From Siphonodentalium dalli (taxonomy: Eukaryota; Mollusca; Scaphopoda; Gadilida; Siphonodentaliidae): 64,000 nt of DNA. Numbering within the stretch: the first letter of the stretch is position 1; every line of letters starts with the position of its first letter. The stretch is taken from the NCBI GenBank assembly GCA_032622095.1, contig CP136063.1, positions 31,312,987 to 31,376,986 on the forward strand, given 5' to 3'. This document shows positions 4,337 to 55,500 of this stretch, piece by piece. The position numbers and the translations under genes are program-made. Under the pieces are notes generated by a model. The model did no database searches, was not told where the DNA came from, and saw only the letters and a program-made list of their open reading frames with translations.

Positions 4337-4839
4337 CACCGTCAAGTCGATCTCTAGCTTCCTACATGTTGGCCACATATATACAGCCCTGAATTATTGG
4401 CTAAAGCGCGGCGATCCAATTTGGGCGTAATTTTAACTGGAGCGCTCGAATGGGTAACTGGATACTGTCCGCAGCTGAGTAAAGTGCCACCGCTGGTATG
4501 AGTGATTCATTGTACACAAGGCGCGTAACGCTCGATTGGGCGCTTTTGGGAAATTTACATACCTCAATTTCTTGAACTCAAAAGCGAGAATAAACCAAGA
4601 ACACCAGGAAGAGTTGAAAATCTTGCTCACCGTCTATGAAATGTAGGGAACACATTCTGCTGGAACTAACAGGCCTCCACATATCACCTTTTTACTGTTA
4701 GACTTTCTACTGACTTTGTGGAGTTTGTCAAACCTCAACCTGCTACTTGGATCTTTTCTTTCAGTGGGGAATACAAGCAACAAAAACATCTACTTGGTAC
4801 TCCATCGCCCTCAATGTGCTGAGGATTATGTGGAGGTTA
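4337..4839. other. No gene recognised
   Basis: AT-rich unique-looking sequence. The minus-strand ORF at 4433-4630 has no recognisable domain and I treat it as chance. Confidence 0.5.
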
Positions 4840-14433: not shown

Positions 14434-14580
14434 ATTAAGTTTTCTATTACTATTTATTATTATTACTATTTATTATTATTTGTATATATTTATTATTATT
14501 TATTATCATTCTGACAAACTCCTGCATGTGCTACCACTAGCAACATAACAAACTTTTTTTGTATTTGAGATTTTGTTGAG

Positions 14581-17500
14581 CAACGGAATCGGTTGGTGGC
14601 TACCACTACGACGTCGTGAATATGGTATTATACCAGGCAGCGGATACGAGCAGAGGTTCCTTCGGCGTCGTCACAAGTATGGGTGCCCAGCATAGAGAAT
14701 CGGAAATCGCGTCTGAGAATAAAATACGTGTGAGCCCTAACATGGGAGGGAAAGAACCAGGCCCCGCACATTTGATTGGAAATGTGCGCATCAGTTGGTT
14801 CAACCAGTGTTCCCCAGAACATACATTATTGAGGTCGACTGACAAAAACTATGTCCTCTTGCGTACAATTCCAACGAAGATATTTGATGTAGAGTTTAGT
14901 AAATCTGTTCCTGGCTGGACTGTATATCACGCGAGTGTGACCAATCGAATTAACGTGACTAAGACTAACATTGGATACTGTCCAATGATTCCAGGCTCAG
15001 CAGCTGATTTCGATAAAATCTTTACCATGATGAAACAGTTTCAAAATTTGTTCAGGACTCTAGGGCAGAATTGGTCGTATGTTACATATGACGAAGCGAT
15101 ATACTGCAAGGCTCAGATGATTAAATGGAGAAATCCGGCTGAATTTAAGAACGACGAGTTTGAATTGGGAGGCATGTACAGAGCCATGAACTTCATGGGT
15201 GACATAGGCAAGATTATGCAGGAAAGTGGATTCGAGGACATTGTTATAGATGCTGGTGTACATGGTAACGCAACAGTCAATCGTATTTTGTGTGGAAAAT
15301 CGTATAACCGCGGCGTTCGCTTGCATAAATTGATGAACGAAGCATTCGGACAGTTGAGGTGGAAGGCATTTCTGGAATGGCTTAGCTGCAACGGAGAACA
15401 GATTGGGTCGCACATAATGGACAATATTGCTGCAAAGGCAGAAGCTGTGATGGACTTGTTCACCGAACTGAACGATGATAGCAGGCACAGCTTACAAAAA
15501 TGTGTCACTGAATTCCAGTCAGCTGTTCGTAAAGTTTGACGAGTTTCTAGACCATGGCAGAAAAGTGTCAAAAACATTTATGTTCTGGGACAACTATGTA
15601 TCTGATTTGTCACAACTGATGCTTGATTATATTGCTGCTAAGCGCGATGATAATAGATTGATGGAGATAGAGACATCAGCAGAAATGCTTCCTCTTGATT
15701 TCATGTGTAAACATGTGAACTACGCGCGATGGGGATTAGTCAATGTAGCGGAATCGAGGCTAATGTTCGAGAAGAAGCCTGAATTAGCATCCGCCGTTTT
15801 CCAAAAGAACACATCTGTTCACCACACTTGCAAGCCTTTCTCTGGCGTATGGCATGATATGGCAATTGAACAATCCACCAACAAGGACTGTGGCAAATAT
15901 CGAAGTTTGTGTTGTCACACCGCGGCTCTGAAAAGGTTCTATCCGACTGCGCATATAAAGGCATCAGTTGCGTTGCAGACATTTGAAATAAGTGGGCTAC
16001 ACGACGCGAATAAATATTCGTACAAGGAGGCATCCGCAAATCGTATGCTCGCCGACGAGAAAGCCGTCTCCCATATTGTGGCAACAGTATCTGATATCAT
16101 GGTCAATCCGTTCATTATTGAACAAGGGGCTTCGGAGAGCAATACCACACCACTCGTAAACATTGCTACATCTCGGGTTGCAACACATGATATCGAATCA
16201 CAGTTGTGTGATGTCCGGGTTGCGGGGAACCAACAACTTTCTCAGATTGTGACCAAACAGTTCGAAACCAACATAAATGGTGAAACACTGACTTCTTTGA
16301 CAAAATATCAACACCCAAATTAAAAACATTTAGTACTCTAAACAAGCCACTGGCGGCAAAAGAAAAAGATACTAATAAGTCTGTCGAAATTGACAGGCAG
16401 ATATTTAGCAAACTGGTTGTTGTTGCACAAAGCGGAGATGTCGATCTACCAGCTCTCCTGAAACATGAAATAGCATCGGTTCACTCCCCCTATTGAATTT
16501 GGATGGAACTATCAGAATAACAACGAAGAGTGTCATCATTGGATACATCGAGGGCCATATAACTATATATAAATTTGCCATCTTCTCTGATAACCACGAT
16601 GGGAATTATTGACTTCATGATGCTCCTACAGATGACAATGGCAAGTGCAACCGACTGTTCTACATTTGGTGGATATTCTGAGAAACTGCTGCATGCCGTT
16701 CTCAGTTTCCAGCTATACACAGTCAGACTCGATAAAGTCGGGCGAAAGAGCTAGATGCGGGGATATACGGATACACCTTTTCCAAAACAAAGACAGAAAT
16801 ATTTGTCCAATCCAAAAAAACAAAATAAATATGGTCAATTTCTTATTTGATGACTGGTCCCGGAAGATACCTTTGCTATTATCGAATGACCGGAAAGTTT
16901 TCCTTGCCGGTGGATTCCCAGATTCGAAAAAGGTTATGTTTTTATCAAAGGATGGGTGTGGTTGGTCAGAGTATCTTGAGTCGGACCACGAGGAGGCTGT
17001 TTCTAGGATGTTTGTACATCTGGGACATGCCACAAGTGAATTACACATAGAAGGATTCATTTTGTGGAGTGGAGATACCGACGTCCTGGCAATGTGTCCA
17101 ATGTATTGTGTACTACTGGGCATAAAAGAGCTATTCTTCCTCACTGGCGTTGGCAAACGGCGTCGATATATACCAGTTCATGATTGCGCGAGGGATTTGG
17201 ACAAGGACATGGCTATGGTTATGCCAGCTATCCATGCAATGAGTGGGTGCGACTCGACAAGCGCGTTCAATTCTATTGGGAAATTGAAATGGTTCCGAAC
17301 ATTGCAAGATCACTCAAAAATGTTCACAGCCTTCTTGGAGATGGAGAGGACCCGACTATCATTAAGGACCATGTGAAGGCAACATGTGTGTCTCCAGATT
17401 GTTTGGTTTATGCGAACCGTGAACTGACATCCCTTGATGATTTACGTTATAAATTGTACAGTAAAAAGAACACTAGGAGTGAAAAACTACCACCAACAAT

Positions 17501-17841
17501 TCATTCATTCAATTCATTCAATTTGCACCTGAAACGTTAACTACCAAGTTTATGTATGGACACATGCACTCTTCCCAATGCTGATGCTGCGATCACCACG
17601 ATTGAATGGGTGGGTTCTCAATTCTATTGAACAGCTTGTCCCGGAGATGATGTCTCTCCCACCAGCTCCGACTGCTGTCCTCGAACTTACAATATGTAGG
17701 TGTAAGTCAGACTACAGTGCAAGGCGGCGCCGTTGCAAGAAAGAGGGTGTCCTATGTACAAATGCATGCGGCTGTGACCAGGAACTATGTGATAACAACT
17801 GCATGAGCGACGAAGAAGTGAGCGATGACGAAACTCTGTAG
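14581..17841 (+). pseudogene. Academ-like transposon protein, copy 1
   Basis: Successive frames encode one long protein broken by shifts near 15525, stops near 16321 and 16495, and further shifts to 17540. The order is: a first block to about 15525 with WSYVTYDEAIYCKAQ and GVHGNATVNRILCGKSYNRG; a block with SKTFMFWDNYV and FSGVWHDMAIEQSTNKDC (to about 15900); KEASANRMLADEKAVS (about 16020-16070); then a degenerate TFGGYSEKLLHAV stretch. Next comes a FEN1/XPG-like acidic series: HEEAV (16987-17001), W-S-G-D-T-D (17074-17082) and H-A-M-S-G-C-D-S-T-S-A-F followed by I-G-K (about 17230-17290). The end is an eight-cysteine module (17695-17802). PIN-type nuclease plus Cys8 is what I recall for Academ transposons. 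The usual HEEAD Asp is Val here, so even the best block has lost a probable metal ligand. No ATG opens the first block and no TIRs were found. Confidence 0.65.
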
Positions 17842-18368
17842 GCTATATAGCATATTCTACGTTCCTCATACATGTACGTGGTCAACGTGACATGGTTGTG
17901 CTCAATTCTGAACACTTAGTGACACACTGAAGTAGCATTGTAATGTTATATAGTTATGTCAGGTCCAAACAGCGAACCTGAATATACTCGGATATAGAAC
18001 ACATGTTTTATCCTGATATCAAAAAAACTTCAAAACATAGACATAGAAATAAGATTTTCTTCACAGAAGCATATATTGCAGGATCAGAGTGAACACCCAC
18101 GTAAACTTGCTTAAATTCTAACATTAGTCACACATTTCTATTTGGCTCCAGTTAATAATAATAGTGTGTATTCTTTGACAATGATACTTCTAATTGTTTC
18201 GGATAACTAACATTAAAACTTGAACATACTTTCAGTTCAATGGATTGCACAGTTTATTTCCAGCAGTGATGAAAACTAACTTTTCACTAAAAAACACGCT
18301 TATTTTGCGATTTCAACAAATGTTGTGATTTAAATTTCCTATAATTCAGACAAATGATTAACTTTCTT
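17842..18368 (+). other. 3' flank of Academ-like copy 1
   Basis: Non-coding. The last 100 bp (about 18265-18368) resembles the inner edge of the right TIR of the 25791-31152 element (GATGAAAACTAACTTTT versus TGGCGAAAAATTAACTTTTT; GTTGTGATTTAAATTTCC versus GTTGTGAATGTAAATTCT). The element therefore extended this far before truncation at about 18368. Confidence 0.5.
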
Positions 18369-18393
18369 ATTATTTATTATGGCGCCCGCTCTC

Positions 18394-18410
18394 CCGCGGC
18401 GAAGCCGCGG
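18394..18410. repeat. Perfect 7-bp GC stem with GAA loop
   Basis: CCGCGGC-GAA-GCCGCGG within a short GC-rich island that follows a TTATTTATTAT tract at the truncated end of Academ-like copy 1. Confidence 0.7.
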
Positions 18411-19172
18411 AAAGCGAAGCGACCTAGGGTATTCGTATTCGAATATGAGATATACTAATCGACTTTTTCAGCCCGCTCTAAAAATAGATTAAATTACCTA
18501 AAGTAGAATAATTTATTCATCATTCAAAGGTCAGCGGAGTCCAAAAATGATTGTTGGCGACGACCGCCATTTTGTATTGATTAATGCCACCTCGAAATGT
18601 GTAATTGGGCAAAATGCTCCAGGGCAAAAATAAAAAAAAATTTGATCTAGCAACTGTTAGCTATACTTCATCATATGTAGGAACATCATGCTCCTAAAGC
18701 CAAATATATTTTCAAAACGTGAATGTAAATTGAACAAAAGCTCTGGTTAACAAAAAAGTTAAATTGCATGAAAATGTTTTGTTTACATATTTCATAAAAA
18801 TATTTACCCCGAAAGAGGAATCTAACGACATAGCTGGCTGTTTACATATTATCTTCAATTTTCTAACGATATTTCTGCCTAAAAGATTGATGAACTATTC
18901 TCAAAGTTCAAGGCCGACAAACGGAAACTTTAAGTTCCGATTGAAAGATCGCAGAGTCATTTTAAGATTGCTTCTTGGGAAACCAGTAAAGGCGTCATGA
19001 CACCAAGGCGTACATCATGACGTCACTACCTACACGGCGCAAAATTCGAGACAGGACTGCATCGATGGCCAGACAGCTGAGACTCGTACTACGTGGAAGG
19101 CTAAATATCCACATTTACGTTATATGTGATTATTTACATACATTGTATATATAATTTTCTTGTGTCCCATTA
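18411..19172. other. No gene recognised
   Basis: AT-rich non-coding sequence. The 78-aa ORF at 18764-19000 has no recognisable domain. Confidence 0.45.
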
Positions 19173-19174
19173 TA

Positions 19175-19879
19175 AGGGTGGATACACACATGCATGTAAT
19201 TTATGTATGTAAAATACATGTATTGTACATGGCCACACCAATATTTGACAACATTAATCACCTGCGCGCGACCGGTTCATTGTTAACAGGCCAGAAAAGT
19301 GAGTAGTGCTAAGCGAAGTCAAATTATCTTCTATCAGTATATTTAAGGCCAGTCCAAAACATGTCTTCTCTAATTAGTCAAATCTGTGTGATATCTGTCA
19401 TTTTATTAATGCACGAACACCAGAAGCCATACGTCTGGCATATACAGACTTGATGTAGAACATTTTCAACCATGATGCTTGTTTGGGTGGGGTATCGAAA
19501 GCTTCAAATCGCTAAGGGATTTAGTTGAATGTATCGGTCGGAATAATCTGGGCAAGAAGGTACAATATGATATGTTTTACTTAAATAGCTCAGAGTTAGC
19601 CACCCCGCCTGGTAGCTTTCGGGGTCATATATAGCCCCTGCATGCGTCGGGGAAATCCTAATCCACTACTGCTATACATTAGAGAGGACTGGTAATTATT
19701 TAAATAGAAAGTCGACTCAGTCCAAGATAACGGCTTGTCTACATTCCGACTTAATTGGAAGTAGAACTCAGTGCGTTTGATTGGCTTGTAAGTGGACACA
19801 TTACATCGTCTGTATGATCCATGTAAAACACCAAATACCCGATAATTACCGAGATTACATGCATGTGTGTATCCACCCT
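19175..19879. mobile_element. TA-flanked TIR element, 705 bp
   Basis: The two ends are perfect 26-bp inverted repeats beginning AGGGTGGATACACACATG (left 19175-19200, right complement ending 19879). Both are flanked by TA (19173-19174 and 19880-19881), consistent with a TA target duplication. There is no transposase, so it is non-autonomous. The minus-strand ORF at 19596-19895 runs across the right end and is not a gene. Confidence 0.75.
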
Positions 19880-19995
19880 TAGGGTTTATCATCAAATCCT
19901 TCTATACATATAACAATTCATCCGATAATCCCATGAACAGTAACAAGCGGGCACAAACTACGTTTACGTACATGATCATATTATTTGTATTGGCA

Positions 19996-20288
19996 GAAAT
20001 AATATTCCGACGCAATGTGCGTTGATATTCCATACTGTAGTTCGTTAATTCAATACAAGTTATGTTTTACTAACCCTCATACCATCAATAATTAGGCCCA
20101 TTTTTTTTTAGCCTGCATGTGATAAAAGTCGATTTTTCTCAAAACTGCAACACTTTTGGAGCATACATCTACCTTGACGCTAAAATAGATACATTGGGCG
20201 ATAACTAGGTTACCATGAATATTGTCTACCACGCCGGTTGAACTAACTCCTAAAATAGAGCTCTTTTCAGACTTGGCGTCTGGACTAT
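19996..20288 (+). repeat. Academ-end repeat, copy A
   Basis: A 293-bp unit starting GAAATAATATTCCGACGC. Its last 55 bp (CCGGTTGAAC ... TGGCGTCTGGACTA) is nearly identical to the terminus of the 25791-31152 element. More internal sequence is also alignable (GGTAGATGTA ... AAAGTGTTGCA in reverse). It is about 95% identical by eye to copy B at 20992-21283, in the same orientation. It is either a solo end or a short derivative. Confidence 0.75.
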
Positions 20289-20991: not shown

Positions 20992-21283
20992 GAAATAATA
21001 TTCCGACGCAATGTGCGTTGATATTCCATACTGTAGTTCGTTATTTCAATAAAAGTTATGTTTTACTAACCCTCATACCATCAATAATTAGGCCCATTTT
21101 ATTTAGCATGCATGTGATAAAAGTCGATTTTTCTCAAAACTGCAACACTTTTGGAGCATACATCTACTCTGACGCTAAAATAGACACATTGGGCGATAAC
21201 TAAGTAACCATGAATATTTTCTACCGCGCCGGTTGAACTAACTCCTAAAATAGAGCTCTTTTCAGACTTGGCGTCTGGACTAT
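20992..21283 (+). repeat. Academ-end repeat, copy B
   Basis: The second, direct copy of the unit at 19996-20288, again ending TGGCGTCTGGACTAT. The sequences just outside copies A and B differ, so these look like separate insertions or a duplication that included only the unit. Confidence 0.75.
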
Positions 21284-22116
21284 TACGACAGCTACCCTAT
21301 TAGCTTAACTTACTGCCCCCATTTTCCACCCAAACGTAGTTAATTAATAGAACAAAAGTGTTATTGATTGTCGACTGATCAGTATATGGGATCTGAAGCA
21401 TATATTACACAACATTGCGCAAAAAAAAAATGCAGGGTTAAACATTATAAACTTTATATATCACCTCCGTTATTAACCCTTTCACGACCAGTGATGCGCT
21501 GGTGCAACTTTAAAGAGCATGTGCCAGACTAACAGCGCATTATCTATATGAGCCTTACTTACATATAGGACATGAGCGGTATACTCAGTTACATCGTTGT
21601 GTTTCCCCCACCATATTCGGTGCGTCATATGTACCGGTACTTATTATTTATCTTTAGTAATTTCTTTCTGTTCCACAGATCTACATATGCACTTCGAGTA
21701 CGTGCTCCAGTGATGAAGATTAACATTCCAGCTTGTAACCCAGATCCAAACCCAATATGAGACCACTTCGTTTAGTTTACAGGATTAGCTGCAGATCAAA
21801 TAAATCAAGATGTGATTATTCCTGGTACATGTACAAACATGTATACATATACTACATCTAATGTAACCATCCAATTCACCAAAAAAACAACTGAACGCTT
21901 GAAAACCTGCGAGCAATCAATAAAACGTGGTAACAGATGTAACTGCTCAACTGTTCTAGCACCGTAGAAACACACCCGACAACAGACACTAGCGAGAGGT
22001 CACGACATAGTGCAGAATGTGGGAAATACTGCAACATCCAATCATCTACATGTGTGATATCATATGCGGGTGAAGAAAGTGACACGGCACCCACACAGCC
22101 AATAGACACGGACGAG
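21284..22116. other. Upstream region of zinc-finger gene
   Basis: This contains the 3' splice-site-like TTCTTTCTGTTCCACAG (ending 21678). The zinc-finger reading frame is also open without an ATG from 21943. The stretch 22000-22100 is a diverged duplicate of 22120-22240 (GGGAAATAC ... CAATCATCTA ... CCCACACAGCC), so coding sequence may begin upstream of 22117 through a spliced exon. Confidence 0.4.
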
Positions 22117-23283
22117 ATGCCACGACAGAGTGAAGAGGGTGGGAAATACGGTAACAGTAACACCCAATCATCTATTCAGGGTGGCCATTCCGGTGTGGGA
22201 TCACATGCTGGTGGGGAATGCGACACGACACCCACACAGCCATGTGGAATGACTAAACACACGGTGATAGATAGTTCGTTTAAATGTAATGTTTGTGGCG
22301 ACGCGGCAACCACACAGCCATGTGGAATGACTAAACACACGACGATTGATAGTTCGTTTAAATGTAATGTTTGTAGTGCAGGATTCTCAGCACGTGGAGA
22401 CCTGACTCGGCACATGAGGATCCATACGGGTGAAACTTCATATAATTGTGATATTTGTGAGAAGAAATTCACTCGGAAGAGTAATCTGACTGACCATAAG
22501 AGGATCCATACGGGTGAAACGCCATACAAGTGTGATATTTGTCTGAAGGGATTCAACAGGAAGGGTTCTCTGGGTGTACATATGAGGATCCACACGGGTG
22601 AAACGCCATACAAGTGTGATATCTGTCAGAAAGGATTCACCATGGAGTATCGTCTGACTGTACATATGAGGGTCCATACGGGTGAAACGCCACATAAGTG
22701 TGTTATTTGTCAGAAGGAATTTGCCACGAAGGCTCCTCTGGTTGTACATATGAGGATCCACACGGGTGAAACACCATACAAGTGTGATATTTGTCAGAAG
22801 GGATTCACACAGAAGAGTCCTCTGGTTGCACATATGAGGATCCACACGGGTGAAACGCCATACAGGTGTGATATTTGTCAGAAGGGTTTCACACAGAAGA
22901 TTTATATTGCCGTACACAAGAGGATCCACACGGGGGAGATGCCATTTAAGTGTGATATTTGTGAGAAAAGATTTAATAAGCCAATACAACTAACCAGACA
23001 TGCGAAGAACCACACAGGAGAAACTCCATATGAGTGTGGCGTTTGCGAGAAAAGGTTCATCCATCAGAATATACTTACTCAACATATGAGGATCCACACA
23101 GGAGAAAAGCCGTTTAGGTGCGACATTTGTGAAAAGGGATTCACACAGCTGAGTTCTCGGAATAGTCACATGAGAGTACACGGTGGAGTTAAACGTTATC
23201 AATGTAGGCTGTGTGGCAAATCATACACTGCCTCCAGTAACCTGAAGTCCCACATGAGGAACCACACGGGAGAGAAACCATAG
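22117..23283 (+). CDS. C2H2 zinc-finger protein, 11 fingers
   Basis: From the first in-frame ATG (22117) the product is 388 aa. The N-terminal part is acidic and Thr/Gln-rich, with a duplicated [20 protein letters not shown] segment whose first copy is only half a finger. Eleven canonical C2H2 fingers follow (Cx2C-x12-Hx3H) joined by HTGETPY/HTGEKPF linkers. This implies a nuclear, sequence-specific DNA-binding protein; the target is unknown. Helix residues -1 to 6 are [70 protein letters not shown] and ASSNLKS. Finger 10 ends with a GGVKRY linker. There is no KRAB, BTB or SCAN domain. The frame is open upstream from 21943 without ATG, so an upstream exon is possible. The array ends abruptly at GEKP then TAG. 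Confidence 0.85.
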
Positions 23284-25588: not shown

Positions 25589-25790
25589 TTAAAGATGGAT
25601 TATCTCTTTAAATAACAAATTTTAAATAGTTGCGTGGGTATAAAATAATAGATATGAACTGAAGACCTATGTCCGGAAAAGCTTCTATCAATTAATATTG
25701 ATTTTATTTCGAATATTAAATCGGGCCCGTTTATGTTACTATTTTTAGAACCGACCATTCGGATGATACCATATTGCGATATAGAGCAAT
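25589..25790. mobile_element. TTAA MITE, left half, nested in LINE
   Basis: Starts with TTAAAGATGGATTATCTC inside the LINE frame and follows the 55759-56290 copy closely until ATAGAGCA (25788). There the TIR of the Academ-like element takes over. The right half is missing. Confidence 0.8.
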
Positions 25791-26755
25791 TAGTCCAGAC
25801 GCCAAGTCTGAAAAGGGCTCTATTTTAGGAGTTGGTTCAACCGGTCACCAAGAAAATTTCCACGTGTTGCCTGTTGTGGGGGACTACAGTGCGGTCCATG
25901 CAAGGGTGGATGTAATTTCTGAAAGTGTTGAAATTTTTTTCTATTCATGGTTTTTAATTGAATTAAGCCTAAAATTACCATAAACTGAAAACTTAAACTA
26001 CAGATCACAGTTTATGTCATTTTGGCATTATTTTCCTTCAAAGTCTTAGTAATAGATATATTATTCCACATCGCCACACAAGATTTTGGAAAATAAATAC
26101 TATTTTCGAAAAAAAATTATTTAATGGTTTTTTTTGGGCAAATATTTGCTTTCGTTTCAATTTATTTCTGAAACTGATGGCACACTGCTTGTAATCTCCC
26201 TAATGAATTCCTTGTGTCAAAGCATAATAAATTTCTACAATAAACTGGGAAGTCAAATTGCCAGATACAAACTTCAGATAGTGCCTCTAATGATTATTGA
26301 TTGTAAAAAATATAACCCTCCCCCCCTAAAATTAGAAAAATTGTCTTTTTTTGCAGTTTCGTTAAAAAGACGCTTGTTCTGTAATATTACAATGGAAATA
26401 CACCCGTACCCGATATTACCGTGTTCACAATGTCACCGGAAGGTCAAGTTAGTACCGAGGTGTAGCTTTAAACCAAACCTTTCGATTACATATACATATT
26501 AAAGACGGCATCTACATCCAATAAGCGAAATCAGACCACACGGATGTGATCAATTTATATTTAGTTGCATGACTTAAAACCCAAGTTTGAACAACTTTTG
26601 TATGTCTAGAAGTTCATACAGCAACTGAATAAAGTTAACTTTCATAGTTTCGTAAAGTAATATAATCCTGAATTATAGGAATTTACATGTACAACAAGCA
26701 CTTAACTGGCAATATTATTTTGTTGTGTGAAAAAGTTATTTTTCGCCATCATTCA
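25791..26755 (+). repeat. Left terminal inverted repeat, about 960 bp
   Basis: Matches the reverse complement of 30190-31152 along its whole length, with substitutions and small indels (my rough impression is 80-85%). It has no coding capacity. The ORF at 26134-26502 has its mirror on the minus strand at 30426-30662, as expected for an inverted repeat. Confidence 0.85.
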
Positions 26756-27044
26756 TCGTTATCCGCTTAAAATAACCATAAACCGAAAACTCGAACTAGC
26801 TATGACAAGTTATGGCTTTATGGCATTACTAATCATCATTATGTTAAAATAAAGATTCCATATGTCGTAGCTACAACACAAGCTCTAATACTCAATGAAG
26901 TGCATTTTTAGGGCTAAAATCAGCGTTCGATTGATTAATGTTTTCTAACTGATAGTGCCCGCTTTGTAATTTTCCGGAAAATTCCTGGTATCAAACCTTA
27001 ATAATTTGCTGCATTTAACTGGAGATTACAGTGACTCAATTGAA

Positions 27045-30000
27045 ATGGAGACGAGTCCTCTCAAATTAATACCCGTTGCCAAAAAGTGTAAACTTTCGTT
27101 GAATTTCAAACGGTGTTTAGTATGTCAGAAGTTAAAAGACGAGAACCTGCGAAAAGATTCCGATTCTTGTTTGGAATCGTTTTCAGTTGCTCTGGGTGTT
27201 CGTCGATCATCATATGAAGAATATGGAATTGACCTTAAAGATATCAACATAAGTTTGCATAAGAGTTGTTTCTCCAATCTCCAGTTTCACAAGTTCTTCG
27301 GATCTCAGATTAGTCAAACAGCCCACATCCACGACTGTTGATCAGAGAAATCCACAAGTTACAAGAGAATATTTCGACTTCAAAACTAGATGTCTTATAT
27401 GCTCAAAGTTGTCTCACTTGGGAGTAAAGACATTAGTTCGGGTCAGTACATTTACATCTTGCGAAACTACCGAACGATGTGCGAAGGAAAAGGAGGATGA
27501 CATGATGCAACGGCGTGTTTGGTTTGACTTTTCGAAGTTGATAGCACTTGAGGCAAGACATCACAGGTTGTGCCATAGTAAATATCTGCTGGAGACCACC
27601 ACCTCCAGTAACACGATTACCCCACATGGTGTTGCACTGGAACATTTGATGGGTGTATTCTCCCGGACTTTGAAAAAGGTGTCACATATTATATGGGTCA
27701 TCTACTATCAAAGTTCCTGGACATATTACGACAAATAGGCAAACCGAAGTGTAGCAAGGTCTACACTACACAGAAACTGAAGGAAAAGATTGAACTGAAT
27801 TACTCTGACAAAGTGTGTTTTATTGATGAATCACGGACTAAACCTGAACTCGCGATCAGTAAATCCCTTAATATACAGAATGCCATCAATGTCGCATCAA
27901 ACACCAGGGCTATCCTCAAGGAACTGCAGTTATCGTCCAGTACTACACATGTTTTGAACAAATTGAGAGAGACGGATTGACAGTGCCAACCAATATGACA
28001 TATGGGGCAGCGACGGCATCTGTAGGTGGATATAACCACGACGTGGTGAATATGGTGTTATATCAGGCAGCTGATCTCAGTAGGATTGCTTCGGTGTGAT
28101 TCCAAAGAAGGATGAACGCCAACCAGAAACCCATATTTCATTTGATAATACTATTCGTGTGTGTCCTAATCTCAGAGGGAAGCAACCGGGCCCAGTGCAT
28201 CTAACTGGAAAATGCGCATTCGTTGGTTCAACGTGTGTTCCAAAGAACATGCATACATGAGACAAAAGCTATGTTCTCTTACACACTACCGACTAAGTTA
28301 TTCGATGTACATTTTGAGAGAGGTAAATCGGGATATGTTCCTGGCTGGAGTGTATATCATGCTAGTGTCACTAATCGAATCAACGTGACGAAGACTAACA
28401 TTGGATGTTGTCCGATGGTTCCTGGTTCAGCGACTGATTTTGAAACAGTATATACAACGACGATACGATTTCAGAATTTGTTCAGGACTCTAGGACATAA
28501 TTGGTCTTATGTAGCATACGACGAAGCAACATACTGCAAGGCTCATATGATTGAATGGCGGAACCCTGATGAATTTGATAACGACGATGGTAGGGATGTA
28601 CAGAGCTATGAAGTGGCTTCGAAGACATTGTTATAGAAGCTGGGTGCATGGTGGCGCCACTTTAAACCGGATTGTATGCGGAAAATCGTATAACCGTGGA
28701 TTTCGTTTGCATAAGCTGATGAACAAACCATTTGGACAGTTGAGGTGGAAGTCGTTTTAGACTGGCTTAGTTGCAACGAAGAACACATTGAACCGCCGCA
28801 TCCAATTGACCATGATAATGTGTTGCATGAAATTGGGACACCAGCAGAAATGATTCCTCTGGATTTCATGTGTAAACATGTAAACTACGCCCTGTGGGGC
28901 CATAGTCAATGTAGCGGAGTCGAGACTAATGTTCGAGAAGAAACTGCATATAGCATTTGTCGTTTTTCCGAAAGACACATGCCAGTCTTTCTCTGAAGTT
29001 TGGCATGTTATGGCCATAAAACAATCCATAAATATGGACTGTGGTAAATATCGGGATTTGTGTTGCCAGTCTGCAGCTCTAAACCGGTTCTATATCACGC
29101 CCCATTCAAAATCCTCAGTTGCGTTGCAAACTTTGGAAATGAATGGAATGCATGACTCGAACAGAACTTCACAAAATAAACATGGTCAACTTCTTATCCA
29201 ATAATTGGTCCATAAAGATACCATTGTTATTGTCGCATGGCCAGCAAGTGTTTCTTGCGGGTGGATTTCCAGATTCAAAGAAAGTAATGTTTTTATCAAA
29301 GGATGGTTGCGGTTGGTCTGGGTATCTTGAGACCGAACGCGAATAAACTTGACTCAAGAATGTTCGTACACATGGGGCATGCAGTAAGTGAACTGCAAGT
29401 TGAAATATTCATTGTTTGGAGTGGTGACTCAGACGTTCTGGCGATGTGCCCAATGTTTTGTGTGCTACTGGGTATACGAGTTATTCTTCCTAACTGGTAA
29501 TGGCAAACGACGTCGATATATCCCAGTACATGATTTGCAAAGGTTGTGGGCAAGGACATGTCACTGATTATTCCAGCAGTTCATGAATTGAGCGGATGCG
29601 ATTCGACAAACGCATTCAGTTCTATTAGGAAATTGAAAGATCACCCAGAACTGATCCCGGCGTTTACGCAGACGGGGGAGGACCCGACTCGCATTCCGAA
29701 CCATATGAGGGAAATATTTGGGTCTCTTGTTTCTTTGGTTTATTCCAACCGTGATTCGACATCCCTGGATGACTTGCGCTACGAAGAACGTGAGAAGGGA
29801 CAAACTGCCACCGACCATGGACTCATTCAATCGCACCCAAAACGCGTTAACTATCGAACGTATATATGGACTCAATGTTGTTGCTGCCATTACCACGACC
29901 AAAATGGCTGGATACTTAATAATTATAATGGGCACATTGTTCCGGAGATGATGTCACTCGCTCCAGCTCCGACTGTCGTTCTCGAACTCAACATATGCAA

Positions 30001-30140
30001 GTGCAAGTCCGATTGCAGTACATGACGTTGCCGTTGTAGGAAAGAGGATGTTCAATGCACCGATGCATGTGGCTGCGATCAATAACTGTGTGACAATAAC
30101 TGTACGAGTGACGGAGAAGTGAGCGATGAGAACAGTTTAT
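27045..30140 (+). pseudogene. Academ-like transposon protein, copy 2
   Basis: The first in-frame ATG is at 27045. The N-terminal Cys/His region absent from copy 1 is present here: FKRCLVCQKLKDENLRK, SLHKSCFSNL, then after a shift FDFKTRCLICSK and LIALEARHHRLCHSKY. From about 28020 it parallels copy 1 (VGGYNHDVVNMVLYQAADLS, SVTNRINVTKTNIGCCPMVP, WSYVAYDEATYCKA, CGKSYNRGFRLHKLMN, VNYALWG). Two internal stretches are deleted relative to copy 1, near 28830 and near 29165. The nuclease-like series is present in broken frames (LDSRMFVHMGHA; WSGDSDVLAMCPM; LSGCDSTNAF). The Cys8 module (about 29990-30105) contains TGA and TAA stops. Many frameshifts make it non-functional as it stands. It lies centrally between the two TIRs, as expected for the element's own transposase. 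Confidence 0.7.
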
Positions 30141-30189
30141 AGCATACCCAACTAGTTTTATTTCGTACCAATTACTATTTGCACATGTT

Positions 30190-31152
30190 ATTTTACTTAG
30201 TGGCGAAAAATTAACTTTTTCCCAAAAAACAAAATGATTATATTGCCATTTCAGTGCTTGTTGTGAATGTAAATTCTTACAACTCAGGATTATATCACCT
30301 TACAAAACTATGGCAGTTAACTTTATCAGTTGCTGTATGAACTTTTAGACATTCAGAAGTGGTTCAAACTTGAGCTTTATGTCCTGCAACTAAATATAAT
30401 ATGATCACATCCGTATGGTCTGATTTCACTTATTGAATGATGGAGGCCGTCTTGAATATTTATATGCAATCACTAGGTTTAGCTTAAAGCTACAACTCGG
30501 TACTAATTTGACCCTCCGTTGACATTGTGACAACGGTAAGATCGGGTACTGGTGTATTTCCATTGTGATATTACATAACAAGCGTCTTATGATCAAAACT
30601 GCCAAAAATGACAATTTTCTAATTTTAGGGGGAGGTTTATATTTTTTACAAAAAATAGTCATTCAAGGCATTATCCAGAGTTTTTTTCTGGCAATTTGAC
30701 TGCCCAGTTCGTCGTAGAAAATTATTACGCTTTAACATTCCGATTTGACTAGCGAAATTACAAGCTGTGTGCTATCAGTTTCAGAAATAAATTGAAACGA
30801 AAGCAAATATTTGCCCAAAAAAACGCACTTAAATAATTTTTTTTCGAAAATAGTATTTATTTTCCAAAATCTTGTGTGGCGATGTGAAATAATATCTCTA
30901 TTTCTAACATTTTAAAGGGAAATAATGCCAATATGACATAAAGTGTCATCTGTAGTTTGAAATATCAGTTTATGGTTATTTTAAGCTTTATTCAATCAAA
31001 AACCATGAATAAAAAAAATTTGCAACACTTTCAGAAATTACATCCACCCTTACATCAACCACAATGTAGTTCCCCACAACAGGCAATAGGCGGAAATTTT
31101 CTTGGTGGCCGGTTGAACAGAATCTAAAAACAAAATCCTGGCGTCTGGACTA
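30190..31152 (-). repeat. Right terminal inverted repeat, about 960 bp
   Basis: Inverted partner of 25791-26755. The terminal 14 bp are identical to the left end. The segment equivalent to AAGTCTGAAAAGGGCTC of the left end is altered here (GGATTTTGTTTTTAG), so the arms have diverged most near the tips. Confidence 0.85.
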
Positions 31153-40128: not shown

Positions 40129-42546
40129 TCAGTCATATTTTAATTTTCTTGATGCCAATTTGATAAAAATACTAACTTTTTTCAGTAATAGTTGATTTTC
40201 CAAAGATAATAGTCTTTCGAATTTTTCTTTCGTGGGATTCTCCCAGTAATATTTCGGGATATAGTCTGCTCGAATTATCTGTAGTTCTTTGCAAATAATA
40301 ATAAAATGGTATTCATCACCCGTGCCATCACCGCAAATATCACAGGTTTTGTCACCATTATCCACAGATTTAGATTTCCATCTTGTATATTCGACAGGCA
40401 GTTTTATATTTGCGGTTCTAAATTTTAGCAAAATGTTTGCTAAGTGAGCCGGTAAGAAACTTAGATAGCGACCCATGCCCGGCCTCGTTTTAATACTCAT
40501 ATAAAAACGTGCTCTAGATGAGTTTGCATTCTGCATTTCAGTAAATAGTTCTGTTGTGTGTCGCTCAATAAGCTCTGATTTTATATTTCTAATTTCAGCC
40601 TTTGTTAAACCTGACTGATTTGTCCATGCTCTTTCTATGTTAAGTTCTTTCAGTGTTTTAGAAATAAAAAATAGCCATGGGCTATTGAAGGAGCCATCAG
40701 AATTGTGATCCAATTCTTTAACAAGAATATATATATTTTTTGCAAGTTCTGAGCCATCGTGTGATAGTAGTTTGGACCAGTAAGATAGTGCTCTGCACTT
40801 TATCTCAATGGACAGAGGGTGTCTGCCAAATTCACCGTAAACCATATAATTTGGTGTACTTGTTTTCAGATATCCTATAATTTTGCAGTATTTAAGATGA
40901 AGCGATTCAATAATTTTAGTTCTTTCGTGACACCAAATTTCACTCCCATATAATAGGATGGGTACTATCATGCAGTCAAATAGTTTTAACATAATATCGA
41001 TTGGAAGCTTGAGAGATCTCACTTTGTTTAGTAATCCATACATTGCTCTTGTGCCAATTGTAACTATTTTTTTCAAATTTTGGCAAAATCTTCCATTGTA
41101 AAAAAAGGTTACTCCCAAATACACAAATTCTTTAACTGTCTCGAGTTCTTGACCTCGATATCTGAACGTTGGAATTGGTTTGGGTAACTTATTACTAAAT
41201 ATTATGACTTTAGTTTTTTTTGTATTCACTTGTAACTTCCAAGCATCTGCATAATCTGCAAATGCTTGGAGAGAACGGTGCATATTTTCTTCTGTATCAG
41301 ACATTAATACTGTGTCATCTGCATAAAGAATACAAAACAATTTTATGTAACATCCCACATTATCAATATATAGTTCATCTAAATAACTCAAATTTTGTAT
41401 TGCACAATCATTCATAAAATCTTGGATGTCGTTAATGTACAAGGAAAATAAAAAAGGTGACATTATTTCCCCTTGAAAAAGTCCCACATTACTAACAAAA
41501 AAGTCTGAAATGTTGTGACTGTCTTTTACACATGTTTTTATCTTACCGTACATATTTCTAATGACATTAAGTATTTTTCCGTTGATATTGCATTGGGCTA
41601 ATTTCAGCCATATTGCATCCCTCCATATGGTATCAAAAGCTTTTCTAAAATCAATAAATGTGCAATATAATTTTTTCCCACTTTTTAGGTACAGGTTGAT
41701 TACACTGTGTAAAACAAATATGTTATCTACGGTTGAGTGGGATTTTCTAAATCCCGTCTGATTTTTTAAAATTAGTTCATGATCATCTGAAAAAGAAACC
41801 ATTCTATTGTTTAGAATGGCTGTAAATACTTTAGAAAGACAGCTTAAAAGTGTAATTCCCCGATATGAATCCGGCATAGTTCGGTCACCAGACTTTTTAT
41901 ATATAGGTTTTATCATCCCGACGGCCCATTCCCGGGGGTAGTTTCCAGATTCCAAGATTAAATTGAAAAGTAAGGAATAAATGGGCATCATTTTCTCAAC
42001 AGAAGCCTTCAGATATTCATTTAAAAGCCCGTCGTGACCAGCGGCTTTACTGTTTTTCAAATTGAAAATTACAGATTTAATTTCTTCTTCGGTTATAGCG
42101 TTATTTAGATAACTGTCATGGAGCGACGACTCATTTAATTCATCTATATAATTACCTAGATTATCAGATTCGTCTGAGTCGTTTAAGCTTTTAAAATAAT
42201 CAGAAAATATATCCAGATCTAAGTTCGTGGTGTTATTTTGAAATTTATTATTATTGGATAATTTATTTAGTTTATCCCAGAATGCTTTGCTGGAACTATT
42301 GCTGTAACTCTTCAGTTCAGAAATATCTGCATCTCGCTGATGTTTTATTTTCGAATCCATAGTTTTTCTATAAAGAGTTCCAGTGTTTTTCATATGTTGT
42401 TTGTTTGATAATGATTTTTCTCTATTATATAGTCGTTTTGCCTTGTGAAAAGCTTGTCTCTTTGACTTACATTCATCATCAAACCAAGTTTGATTTGGTG
42501 GTTTATGTATTGTTTTCCTGTGATTTGGATTGTAAGTTCCAAATGT
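40129..42546 (-). CDS. LINE reverse transcriptase with C-terminal knuckle
   Basis: The frame is open from the A7 shift (42548-42554) to 40129, about 805 aa. The first ATG is at 42393, but conserved LINE sequence precedes it (NQTWFDDECKSKRQAF), so it is not the natural start. Counting from that Met: AAGHDGLLNEYLKAS (117-131), SYRGITLLSCLSKVF (176-190), QTGFRKSHSTVDNIF (212-226), motif A FIDFRKAFDTIW (246-257), GLFQGEIMSPFLFSLYINDI (304-323), catalytic YADD (357-360) and LGV thumb-proximal motif (426-428). The C-terminal knuckle is C684-x2-C687-x8-H696-x4-C701. All key RT residues are present, so the domain could have been active recently. It reverse-transcribes its own RNA by target-primed synthesis. 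Confidence 0.9.
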   Translation of the reverse strand, partial: TFGTYNPNHRKTIHKPPNQTWFDDECKSKRQAFHKAKRLYNREKSLSNKQHMKNTGTLYRKTMDSKIKHQRDADISELKSYSNSSSKAFWDKLNKLSNNNKFQNNTTNLDLDIFSDYFKSLNDSDESDNLGNYIDELNESSLHDSYLNNAITEEEIKSVIFNLKNSKAAGHDGLLNEYLKASVEKMMPIYSLLFNLILESGNYPREWAVGMIKPIYKKSGDRTMPDSYRGITLLSCLSKVFTAILNNRMVSFSDDHELILKNQTGFRKSHSTVDNIFVLHSVINLYLKSGKKLYCTFIDFRKAFDTIWRDAIWLKLAQCNINGKILNVIRNMYGKIKTCVKDSHNISDFFVSNVGLFQGEIMSPFLFSLYINDIQDFMNDCAIQNLSYLDELYIDNVGCYIKLFCILYADDTVLMSDTEENMHRSLQAFADYADAWKLQVNTKKTKVIIFSNKLPKPIPTFRYRGQELETVKEFVYLGVTFFYNGRFCQNLKKIVTIGTRAMYGLLNKVRSLKLPIDIMLKLFDCMIVPILLYGSEIWCHERTKIIESLHLKYCKIIGYLKTSTPNYMVYGEFGRHPLSIEIKCRALSYWSKLLSHDGSELAKNIYILVKELDHNSDGSFNSPWLFFISKTLKELNIERAWTNQSGLTKAEIRNIKSELIERHTTELFTEMQNANSSRARFYMSIKTRPGMGRYLSFLPAHLANILLKFRTANIKLPVEYTRWKSKSVDNGDKTCDICGDGTGDEYHFIIICKELQIIRADYIPKYYWENPTKEKFERLLSLENQLLLKKVSIFIKLASRKLKYD

Positions 42547-42555
42547 GTTTTTTTG

Positions 42556-43927
42556 CGGAATCCAATAAAATACACGTTACATCCTCGCATATTTCATCCA
42601 CTATGGATTGATTACACGCAGACCCAGTTTCAGGTCGCCATTGTTCTAATTTTTCAATTACTTGATTAATTTTATTGTGATCAAGATTCACAGCGAAATC
42701 ATTTCTCTTGTCAGGATCCCATTTTTTTATTTTACGATTTGTTTCGGGATCCACATTTGTAGTTATGAGAGGACCATGGGCTCCCACATCGTGACGAGCG
42801 TCAAATTTCAATTCTAAATGGAGTGCGTTGTGTATATCTGAATATAGGGGAGAAAACTCGTTCACCCGAAAATTCTCTATTGTTCGCAATAGATTAATAT
42901 TGCCCAAAGCGTAATCAATTACACTCTTATCGGATGACGTAAGTTTACCATGGTCATTATCTTCCCCAAATCGTCCGTTAACAATAAATATAGATGTCGA
43001 TTCACAGAACTTAATCAATTTATACCCGTAGCTGTTACTTTTCCCCTTATCCTCGGAGCAGCGTTTATTTATGGGAATACAATTTGATTGAGATTCGAGG
43101 TGTATATAGTCAAAAAGTGATTGAGTATTCGTGGCGTCCGTAATGTGTTGTAAATCAGTGAAGTTAATTGAATTGTTAAGTTCGCACATGTTGTTTGAGC
43201 GAGCGTTCATATCTCCGCAAATCAGAAGCAGCTCGTCATCGCGACGCAAACGGCGTATATCAGTTTCTAACTCAATTGGCCAATCGTCGTTACAATACCT
43301 TGTGTTTGTCGGTGGAATATACACCGCACCTATAAGTAAGCTTCGTGAGTTCAATTCGCGATCCGAATCAACACGTACCCAGGCCGCATTTTTAGCTTCC
43401 GATTCAACTACTGTGATATATTTGAAAATCTGCGTGTTTGCGGCTATTAAAATACCACCACAACGTACACCGGTTCCAATGTGTTTTCCCTTGGTTACAC
43501 AAATTTCAAAATTCGGTATACTGATATCATCTTCTATGAAAGCTTTGGTTTCACCCAAGCATAAAATATCGTAGTTGTTTAACATATCCGCAAATTCACG
43601 ATACTGCAGTCTTTTTTCAAGGCCACATACGTTTAACGAAAGCAGTGTTAGAGTTTGACCAAATTCAATTTCATTGTTATCGGTTGATTGGGGGCGAGCA
43701 CTATTGCGCTCAAGATCAGATTCGAGATCATCCAATAGCGGGTCACAAAGAGAATTAATAATTGGGGTAGAATTTACGCCTGTCACCGCCTGGTCAGTGC
43801 GACCGCAGTTGATTGACGTATTGTTTGTATCAACATCACAGGTTCGCGGAGTTTCATTAGCTGGGTAGTTATCGGGCCCGCCCACATGCACTGTAGGGTC
43901 ACATATACCGTTACAAACACAATACAC
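42556..43927 (-). CDS. LINE APE-type endonuclease
   Basis: Counting from the GTG at 43927: LSLNVCGL (Asn99), LGETKA (Glu126), AVYIPPTN (Tyr203), ICGDMNAR (Asp239, Asn241), KSVIDYAL (Asp338) and LYSDIHNALH (His366/370). This is the order of the APE/exonuclease III fold used by LINEs to nick target DNA. The final motif is SDIH rather than the common SDH. The frame in this phase really ends at 42503 after crossing the A7 run, giving a 20-residue out-of-frame tail. No in-frame ATG occurs between the upstream stop and the Asn motif, so the true start is missing or lies in lost 5' sequence. The N-terminal 90 aa are low in recognisable features. Confidence 0.85.
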
Positions 43928-43985
43928 ATGGCAGGTAGTAAAACAATAATTAGTTGTACAACAATTTGTCTCTAATCAGGCTTCA

Positions 43986-52500: not shown

Positions 52501-55500
52501 ATATAGACCCACCCATGGCAATACAGCCACCAAATGTACATCTGTACACCTCACCCATGACCACACAGTCACTCCATGTGTACATACATGTTCACCTCAC
52601 ATATGACCACACAGTCACTCCCTGTGTACATACATGTTCACCTCACACATGACCGCACAGTCACTCCATGTGTACATACATGTTCACCTCACACGTGACC
52701 ACAGTCACTCCATGTGTACATACATGTTCACCTCACCCTTCACCACACAGTCACTCCCTGTGTAAATACATGACCACACAGTCACTCCATGTGTACATAC
52801 ATGTTCACCTCACCCATAACCACACAGTCACTCCCTATGTACATACATGTTCGCCTCACACATGACCACACAGTCACTCCCTGTGTACATACATGTTCAC
52901 ATCACACATGACCACACAGTCACTCCCTGTATACATACATGTTCACCTCACACATGACCATACAGTCACCCCTGTGTACATACATGTTCACCCAGTCACT
53001 CCCTGTATACATACATGTTCACCTCACCCATGACCACACAGACACTCCCTGTGTACATACATGTTCACCTCACACATGACCACACAGTCACTCCCTGTGT
53101 ACATACATGTTCAACTCACACAGTCACTCCCTGTGTACATACATGTTCACCTCACACATGACCAGTCACTCCCTGTATACATACATGTTCACCTCACACA
53201 TGACCAGTCACTCCCTGTATACATACATGGTCACCTCAAATATGACCACACAGTCACTCCCTATGTACATACATGTTCACCTCACACATGACCACACAGT
53301 CACTCCCTATGTACATAAATGTTCACCTCACACATGACCATACAGTCACTCCCTGTGGTGTATATACATATTCACCTCACACATGACCACACAGTCACTC
53401 CCTGTGTACATACATGTTGACTTCACACATAACCACACAACCACTCCATGTGTACATACATGTTCACCTCACCCATGACCACACAGTCACTCCCTGTGTA
53501 CATACATGTTCACACCACACAGTCACTCCCTGTATACATACATGTTCACCTCACACATGACCACACAGTCACTCCATGTATACATACATGTTCACCGCAC
53601 ACATGACAACACAGTCACTCCCTGTATACATACATGTTCAACTCACACGTGACCACACAGTCACTCCCTGTGTACACACATGTTCACCTCACACATGACC
53701 ACACAGCCACTCCCTGTATACATACATGTTCACCGCACACATGACAACACAGTCACTCCCTGTATACATACATGTTCACCTCACACATGACCAGTCACTC
53801 CCTGTATACATACATGTTCAACTCACACATGACCACACAGTCACTCCCTGTGTATATACATGTTCACCTCACACATGACCACAGTCACTCCCTGTGTACA
53901 TACATGTTCACCTCACATATGACCACACAATCACTCCCTGTGTACATACATGTTGACCTCACACGTGACCACACAGCCACTCCCTGTATACATACATGTT
54001 CACATCACACATGACCACACAGTCACTCCCTGTGTACATACATGTTCACCTCACCCATGACCACAGTCACTCCATGTGTACATACATGTTCACATCACAC
54101 ATGACCACACAGTCACTCCCTGTGTACATACATGTTCACATCACACATGACAACACAGTCACTCCCTGTGTACATACATGTTCACCTCACCCATGACCAC
54201 ACAGTCACTCCCTGTGTACATACATGTTCACCTCACACATGACCACACAGTCACTCCATGTGTACATACATGTTCACCTCACACATGACCATAGGCTACT
54301 TCTAATATACCAATGGACACCCCATACATGACCATATAGTCACACGTTGTATAAACATCCCTATCATTCGTGAATACAATAACAGTATACATACTCATCT
54401 CACATATAGCCATACACTCAACAGACACACAAACACTGTATTAAGTTGATCAATGTTGATTATAATGGGCCAGAGTAGCCACATACTAAGATCCATCTCA
54501 GTTCCGTTTCAACGTTCTGCCCATTTCAGTTCAAAAACATGGACAGAATCCCGAAAGAAGTTTTCGGCAAAGATTTCAGCAATTAACTTTTCATGCCTCT
54601 TAAGGTACCGGGACAACCAGATTAGAACATTAAGTTGACTAAGTAGCATGTTTAATAACAAAGTGAGTCACAATCTGCTACCTTTTCTGGACAGCAGTGA
54701 ATAATGTTCGGAATATATGTGACAAATCAACATTTTAACAAATTTGGTTGCCATTTTGCAAGCCATCTTCAGCAATGTTGTTAAAAATACCTAAGTGTGA
54801 CACAGTTAGCACATATCAAAACAATAAACACAGTTGATACCAACGATAGTCCATTTTACTTTTGAAAAATGGTTGAAACCTGAATAGTGATTTTTTGCCG
54901 ATTTTGCTGTCAAGTTTGTGACATAAAAATTCGATTAATTATGGTAATTTCGGTGGTTAAAATAGTAACAATTAACCAATATGCATCCGAAATATTAGTA
55001 TTCAATATATATAAGACAAAATAATCAATTGTGTGTGTAAACTACAACTTGTAAGCAGTTGCATAGTACGATGGGGCAATATTTACCATTTGTCATATAT
55101 TGGTTGCCATTTTGAGCCAAAGTGACAATTTTGGTAAATTTGAGCTGAAATATCAATAAAAAATAGAAAGCATCATTTACATTGCGCAATTCTTCCAATT
55201 TCCTGATGAAAATGACTAGAATCCCCATTGGCGATATTTTGTGATATGTTATACCGCGTTCTGTTAAATCGAATTTTTGAGTGATTGGAAGGGGCTGGGA
55301 CACCATGGGTGGCATATTTCATTGCTTCACATGTGATGTGTCATGCTAAATACAAAATAAAGTCACAATTCTCAACCAGATCAAAACAGCAGAAACTTAT
55401 CTTAAAAATACTAGTAAAAAACGTAAACAAAATTCACTTCTGGCCGCCATTTTGGCTGCCATCTTGGGCGAGGAATTCCAATTTTGGTACAGAAAGGTGG

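Follow-up and report, generated by a model that had tools for sequence, protein, structure and literature searches.

In a 64,000-nt stretch of contig C3 of Siphonodentalium dalli (hereafter the window; the host genome comprises 2.2 Gb in 9 contigs), we analysed a 5362-bp transposon, copy A (locus L001; Table 1). We consider it highly likely that this copy belongs to a non-autonomous family of ~5.4-kb DNA transposons (family A) with long imperfect terminal inverted repeats (TIRs), derived from an autonomous, probably AcademX, element and moved by its sisters. We found the TIRs, a 3-bp target-site duplication (TSD), a gene that had died earlier in the copies compared, and sister elements with similar tips and long frames.

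Inverted arms, genome copies and target sites

The original prediction was of a transposon with matching tips and inverted arms of ~960 bp, and all of this was borne out. Each end carries the tip TAGTCCAGACGCCA, and the two arms gave a single continuous alignment (922 columns, 86% identity, 12 gaps) with its seed blocks in order rather than a set of short patches; under looser scoring the alignment grew to 966 columns at 84.7% and reached both tips. The 5362-bp unit, with the same arms, recurs across the host genome. We compared 15 loci (L001-L015; pairwise identity 95.9-99.1%, gaps not counted), to which eight further stretches (L016-L023) were added.

Both tips were present in 13 of the 15 loci, and identical 3-mers flanked 12 of these 13 elements, with readings of 2, 4 or 5 bp giving 0/12 positives and the 3-mers of different copies agreeing in 14 of 156 comparisons. 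Further copies carried the duplications TAC (L018), AAT (L020) and AGG (L021, read at the inner of its two right tips), bringing the total to 15 exact 3-bp TSDs among 18 distinct copies with both tips. This count omits L019 and L022 (duplicates of L018 and L021), L023 (left tip missing) and L009 and L014 (a mutated left tip or the loss of one end; no matching 3-mer was found at the mutated tip of L009). A TA dinucleotide duplication was considered for the window copy and rejected, the 2-bp reading having failed in the other copies. L018/L019 and L021/L022 are copy pairs within duplicated stretches, and L021 adjoins a further tip of this kind, in what looks like a nested insertion.

When the element and one TGA are taken out of L007, the resulting join aligns without gaps to window positions 25589-25788 (200 columns, 97.5% identity), which is a clean empty site. 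L018 and L020 are 99.0% alike and lie at different sites with different TSDs; a dead copy has therefore moved recently. The status as a transposon is upheld by the genome copies, their 3-bp TSDs and this one empty site, and the family shows what marks TIR elements moved by cut and paste, namely inverted repeats with fixed tips, a TSD of constant length and an empty site (the window copy itself having no TSD).

Death of the gene before the spread

The gene of the window copy is readable in pieces lying in differing frames, comprising the N-terminal Cys/His clusters, WSGDSD, SGCDST...IRK and CKCKSDC..RCRCRKEDVQCTDACGC. Most of the motif series foreseen for a decayed gene, from the Cys/His clusters to the Cys-rich end, can thus be read in the window, but its HEEAD site is destroyed there (LETERE, then a frameshift); the equivalents are HEEAV in copy B, a fragment of a sister element elsewhere in the window (14580-17841), and HEEAD in the relative L026. 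Match lengths from the genome scan suggest that the other A copies are also without the ~440, ~230 and ~860 bp absent from the window copy.

Across the three stretches tested, the majority sequence of the 15 copies has 12 frameshifts relative to the frames of copy B: five are shared by 15/15 copies, five by 14, one by 13 and one by 9. These old lesions recur across the 15 copies, which places the breakage of the gene ahead of the multiplication of the family. Changes among these copies are spread over codon positions 1:2:3 as 112:96:97, and the ratio of nonsynonymous to synonymous changes (N/S) is 0.86 times that expected from the sites. The comparison of the A majority with the L026/L036 open reading frame (ORF) gave 94:74:228 and a ratio of nonsynonymous to synonymous rates (dN/dS) of 0.15, and dN/dS was 0.14 for L036 vs. 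L032 and 0.15 for L036 vs. L033. The gene lineage was formerly under purifying selection, and coding constraint during the spread of family A was hardly any or none. The shared frameshifts and even codon positions, set against a dN/dS of 0.15, give the order of events: selection on the gene came first, breakage followed, and the dead element spread last. Common lesions without coding constraint during the spread, the mark of a non-autonomous family, were found across the 15 copies. The proposed genome-wide search for intact copies turned up copies with the same tips and with TSDs, but the gene was broken in 15/15 of those compared. The arms tell the same story: left arms are 97.0% and right arms 97.3% identical between copies, vs. 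85.1% for left against right within one copy (12 copies; L006, L014 and L015 omitted), and this difference between ~97% and ~85% agrees with an old lesion.

Table 1. Features of copy A and of sister-family fragments in the window
Feature	Coordinates	Strand	Basis or remark
Whole element, copy A (= L001)	25791..31152	+	5362 bp; arms, tips, genome copies
Left TIR arm	25791..26748	+	arm alignment
Right TIR arm	30201..31152	-	86% to left arm
Left tip TAGTCCAGACGCCA	25791..25804	+	tip search
Right tip TAGTCCAGACGCCA	31139..31152	-	tip search
Second copy of arm segment 25967-26248, direct, diverged (62.5%), just inside arm	26765..27022	+	self-alignment
Fossil gene, shifting frames	27045..30142	+	14 frameshifts vs. 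1049-aa L026 ORF, majority of 15 copies
N-terminal Cys/His clusters (CLVC..., CLIC...)	27045..27600	+	frame reading
Junction, ~440 bp absent relative to L025	27947..27948	+	alignment to L025
Conserved part, putative transposase (YDEA..., CGKSYNRG.RLHKLM, DFMCKHVNYA..)	28010..29170	+	role inferred
Junction, ~230 bp absent relative to L025	28812..28813	+	alignment to L025
Junction, ~860 bp absent relative to L025, including first half of putative nuclease	29170..29171	+	alignments to L025, L032
Remnant of putative PIN/FEN-like nuclease (WSGDSD, SGCDST...IRK)	29170..29640	+	frame reading
Cys-rich end CxCxxxCxxxxCxCxxxxxxCxxxCxC plus two Cys; two stops	29993..30103	+	frame reading
5' flank, dispersed repeat; same repeat family hosts copy L007 with TGA duplication	25589..25788	+	sequence match
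Copy B, from the L025/L026 family: gene part plus inner portion of the right end; left part missing	14580..18380	+	93.5% to L025
Remainder of copy B right end, tip at 20287	19982..20287	+	tip search, alignment to L025
Second right-end fragment of sister family, same tip	20992..21282	+	tip search, alignment to L025

Sister elements and the origin of the arms

Relatives L025-L035 were found by a genome search with copy B, in which 40 of 144 candidates were scored. L025 is 6402 bp long, with the left tip TAGTCCAGACGCT, a right tip that is one base different elsewhere and a CAA/CAA duplication; in this one complete sister checked there was no inverted repeat at E 1e-4, and so no long TIRs. The 1049-aa frame of L026/L036 is preceded by frames of 180 and 391 aa; the right end of this element was looked for and not found. 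L032, on contig C1, is 83-88% identical to family A from position 2164 through the right tip, its left part being unmatched, and retains the 830 bp of nuclease region lost in A. A tip of the TAGTCCAGACGCCA type was also found by the tip search at 20287 and 21282 of the window, on the minus strand, where sister-family fragments end (Table 1). The right end of copy B is interrupted by ~1.6 kb of other DNA (18381-19981), and its 292-bp piece 19996-20287 is repeated at 20992-21282 with an identical inner break point.

We propose that a sister transposase would recognise the common tip and subterminal sequence of A, excise the dead element at both ends and insert it at target cuts staggered by 3 bp. 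The putative FEN-like part may trim or resolve strand ends, which is an economical guess, and the Cys/His and Cys-rich parts may bind DNA. Both A arms align for the greater part of their length with the left end of L025 (65% and 64%), and so the right end was probably replaced by an inverted copy of a left end, after which the two would have drifted to ~85% before the spread. The lack of long TIRs in a sister points to long TIRs as something that an element may acquire late.

Protein domains

AcademX is described with an XPG part and a Cys8 part, and both had been predicted for the window gene. The active-site series of FEN1 runs D34, D86/KSGE, E158-E160, D179-D181 and D233/GIGPK. The L026 ORF reads GIIDFMM ... 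VVCDSYTQPDSIKSGERARRG ... ESDHEEAD ... WSGDTD ... ALSGCDSTSAFSSIGK over about residues 640 to 885, followed by the Cys-rich end. Its order GIID..VVCDSY..SIKSGERARRG..HEEAD..GDTD..GCDSTS..IGK parallels the motif order of FEN1/XPG/EXO1 (FEN1 sequences were checked), so that the ordered acidic motifs of the predicted FEN1/XPG-like protein are complete in this 1049-aa ORF, but the profile tests were not significant. With an hmmsearch profile built from seven FEN/EXO1 sequences, P0001 ranked 18th of 2002 sequences (989/2002 scored), and the L026 region ranked 38th of 3001, not significant, in a ranking without L026, without L036 (the query itself) and without the L031 plus-strand frames (a reverse-frame match). 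Local hhalign against FEN gave E 0.04-0.06, with column shuffles as good in 5/200 and 11/300 cases (not significant). A run with other settings placed the match elsewhere, with control parts of the protein at 17.9 and 12.7 vs. 19.9, and so did the global mode. Both hmmsearch and local hhalign aligned GCD...IGK with GSDY...GIGPK of FEN1, a placement that is suggestive only. The recommended XPG/PIN profile search of the reading frames thus yielded a motif placement in local runs, but no significant score.

As for the predicted Cys8 end, the cysteine pattern is present in the window and in L026, but the Pfam TCR/CXC model gave E 2.1 for the window copy and E 3 for L025; both matches covered identical positions of the model and were far below cut-off. 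TCR had no match in P0002, whose frame ends within the Cys part. Matches below cut-off such as L1R_F9L (E 0.005) and TARP were rejected as incoherent together. No Pfam helicase was found in three L036 frames, two L025 frames and the scanned window pieces, and searches of viral contigs, prokaryote genomes, phages and plasmids found no relatives. Proteins with HALTGCDTTS-like and TPKH-like motifs, common and unnamed in cnidarians and molluscs, offer a lead only (a literature search on one motif was empty), and among the literature matches listed none linked Academ with a PIN or CXC part.

Concentration of left ends in blocks of C3 and C1

A whole-genome scan with the 24-bp left end gave 146 matches at up to 2 mismatches, and a reversed-pattern control gave 0. 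The 69 exact matches comprise 57 in C3:11.1-59.5 Mb, 9 in C1:256.6-272.4 Mb and one each in C2, C3:296.6 Mb and C6; unexpectedly, 66/69 exact left ends therefore fall within ~3% of the 2.2-Gb genome, and the C3 block holds 57 vs. 1.5 expected by its size. The exact class is complete, the best 100 of the 146 matches having been listed by mismatches and then by contig; the 31 one-mismatch matches listed, which break off after C3:50.7 Mb (28 in the C3 block and 3 within or close to the C1 block), did not enter the tally. These blocks were drawn post hoc and include segmental duplicates, and the binomial figure for the enrichment is descriptive only.

Segmental duplication accounts for part of the confinement. 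A shortage of targets elsewhere is not its cause, since the dispersed repeat of the 5' flank has 5501 genome matches, the first 100 listed of which span C1:1.9-71 Mb. Tentatively, the C3 and C1 blocks may form a distinct compartment (non-recombining, sex-linked, introgressed or germline-limited) that is the near-exclusive home of both dead and preserved members, an idea we regard as less likely than not. The confinement could flag an atypical region of the host genome.

Other features of the window

Adjoining minus-strand frames of 815 and 490 aa at 40129-43975, one with a YADD reverse-transcriptase motif, resemble a nearly intact long interspersed nuclear element (LINE). A 446-aa frame at 21943-23283 contains many C2H2 zinc fingers, long tandem arrays occupy 52535-54291 and 56425-59178 (units of 46 bp and of 12 bp, AACCGCCTATAG), and no RNA families were found. 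The C2H2 zinc-finger and LINE-type frames are suggestive of an animal host.

Alternative explanations

The original prediction implied an autonomous Academ element that had decayed merely at this locus, as might be supposed from the length of the gene that remains and its recognisable parts. This is contradicted by the common frameshifts (of the 12 in the majority sequence, 11 are shared by 13-15 of the 15 copies and the last by 9) and by the codon-position pattern, with changes even over the codon positions among 15 copies that are 96-99% alike, and we regard decay at this locus alone as very improbable. Even less credence is due to the copies being segmental duplications of one dead locus: L018/L019 and L021/L022 were indeed duplicated together with their near surroundings, and copies cluster on C3, but a separate 3-bp TSD marks 15 of the 18 distinct copies with both tips, the flanks of L001-L015 are common only in patches like dispersed repeats (40 longest matches), and an empty site exists for L007. 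Another reading is a TIR transposon from outside Academ, for example an undescribed sister lineage with FEN-like and CXC-like parts; this is unlikely in our judgement, though it carries appreciable weight: no match to the families searched rose above cut-off and the FEN profile tests were not significant, but the TSD, the length of 5.4-6.4 kb, the FEN-like motif order and the Cys-rich end jointly fit the descriptions of AcademX.

Several observations weigh against our preferred explanation of a dead AcademX-like family moved by its sisters. The window copy is without a TSD (AAT/TAG), as are L016 and L017, and the genome scan scored 29/364 first-look candidates. Movement of A in trans by sisters such as L025 is presumed rather than observed. 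No fully intact autonomous gene was found, the best relative being open in three long pieces, and the close sisters are little constrained (dN/dS for L036 of 0.64 vs. L025, 0.55 vs. L027 and 0.37 vs. L030) and, by these ratios, appear to be decaying themselves. For the putative transposase and nuclease folds, profile similarity to FEN1/XPG/EXO1 is not significant, and other Pfam, NCBIfam and PDB sequence matches were absent or below cut-off. As to the replacement of one end by the other, the right end of L025 aligns with internal portions of both arms (A 878-954 and 4389-4497), and the right end of sister copies with the 54 bp at the outer edge of the A left arm; with right-end matches in both arms, the arms are mosaics and the end-swap account is too simple.

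Family A, read as a dead family moved by its sisters, offers a clean natural record of a large transposon that stayed mobile after the death of its gene, in which the lesions, codon pattern, arm divergence and TSDs are concordant. Its ends are shared with sisters in better repair, so that mobilisation in trans by a little-studied superfamily can be put directly to the test.

Comparison with known systems

Ds-like derivatives and those resembling miniature inverted-repeat transposable elements (MITEs) carry internal deletions, retain their ends and spread in trans. Family A is like them in its internal deletions and retained ends and, probably, in its spread in trans, but copy A keeps ~3.1 kb of fossil gene together with long arms, and is 5.4 kb long as against a few hundred bp.

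Among the lineages of Academ, AcademH has a TSD of 9-10 bp and encodes a helicase (PMC10045372). It would be of the same superfamily as family A, provided that Academ is right, but is disfavoured because of the 3-bp TSD here and because the scanned pieces held no Pfam helicase. AcademX, the nuclease lineage of Academ, has a TSD of 3-4 bp according to the same source (PMC10045372), and the 3-bp TSD here falls within this range; the 5.4-6.4 kb of our elements lie near the mean length of 5565 bp given for curated bivalve Academ elements in PMC10294476. L026 is probably like AcademX in having the FEN-like motif series together with a Cys-rich end, and family A is unlike it in its ~960-bp TIR and in a gene that is dead in the 15 copies compared. 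The Academ-group assignment of the original prediction thus agrees with published descriptions in TSD and length, and is an assignment by description. On such descriptions AcademX is the best fit and is likely, if not proven, and the putative nuclease and Cys8 parts, judged by their motifs, are probable, though again not proven.

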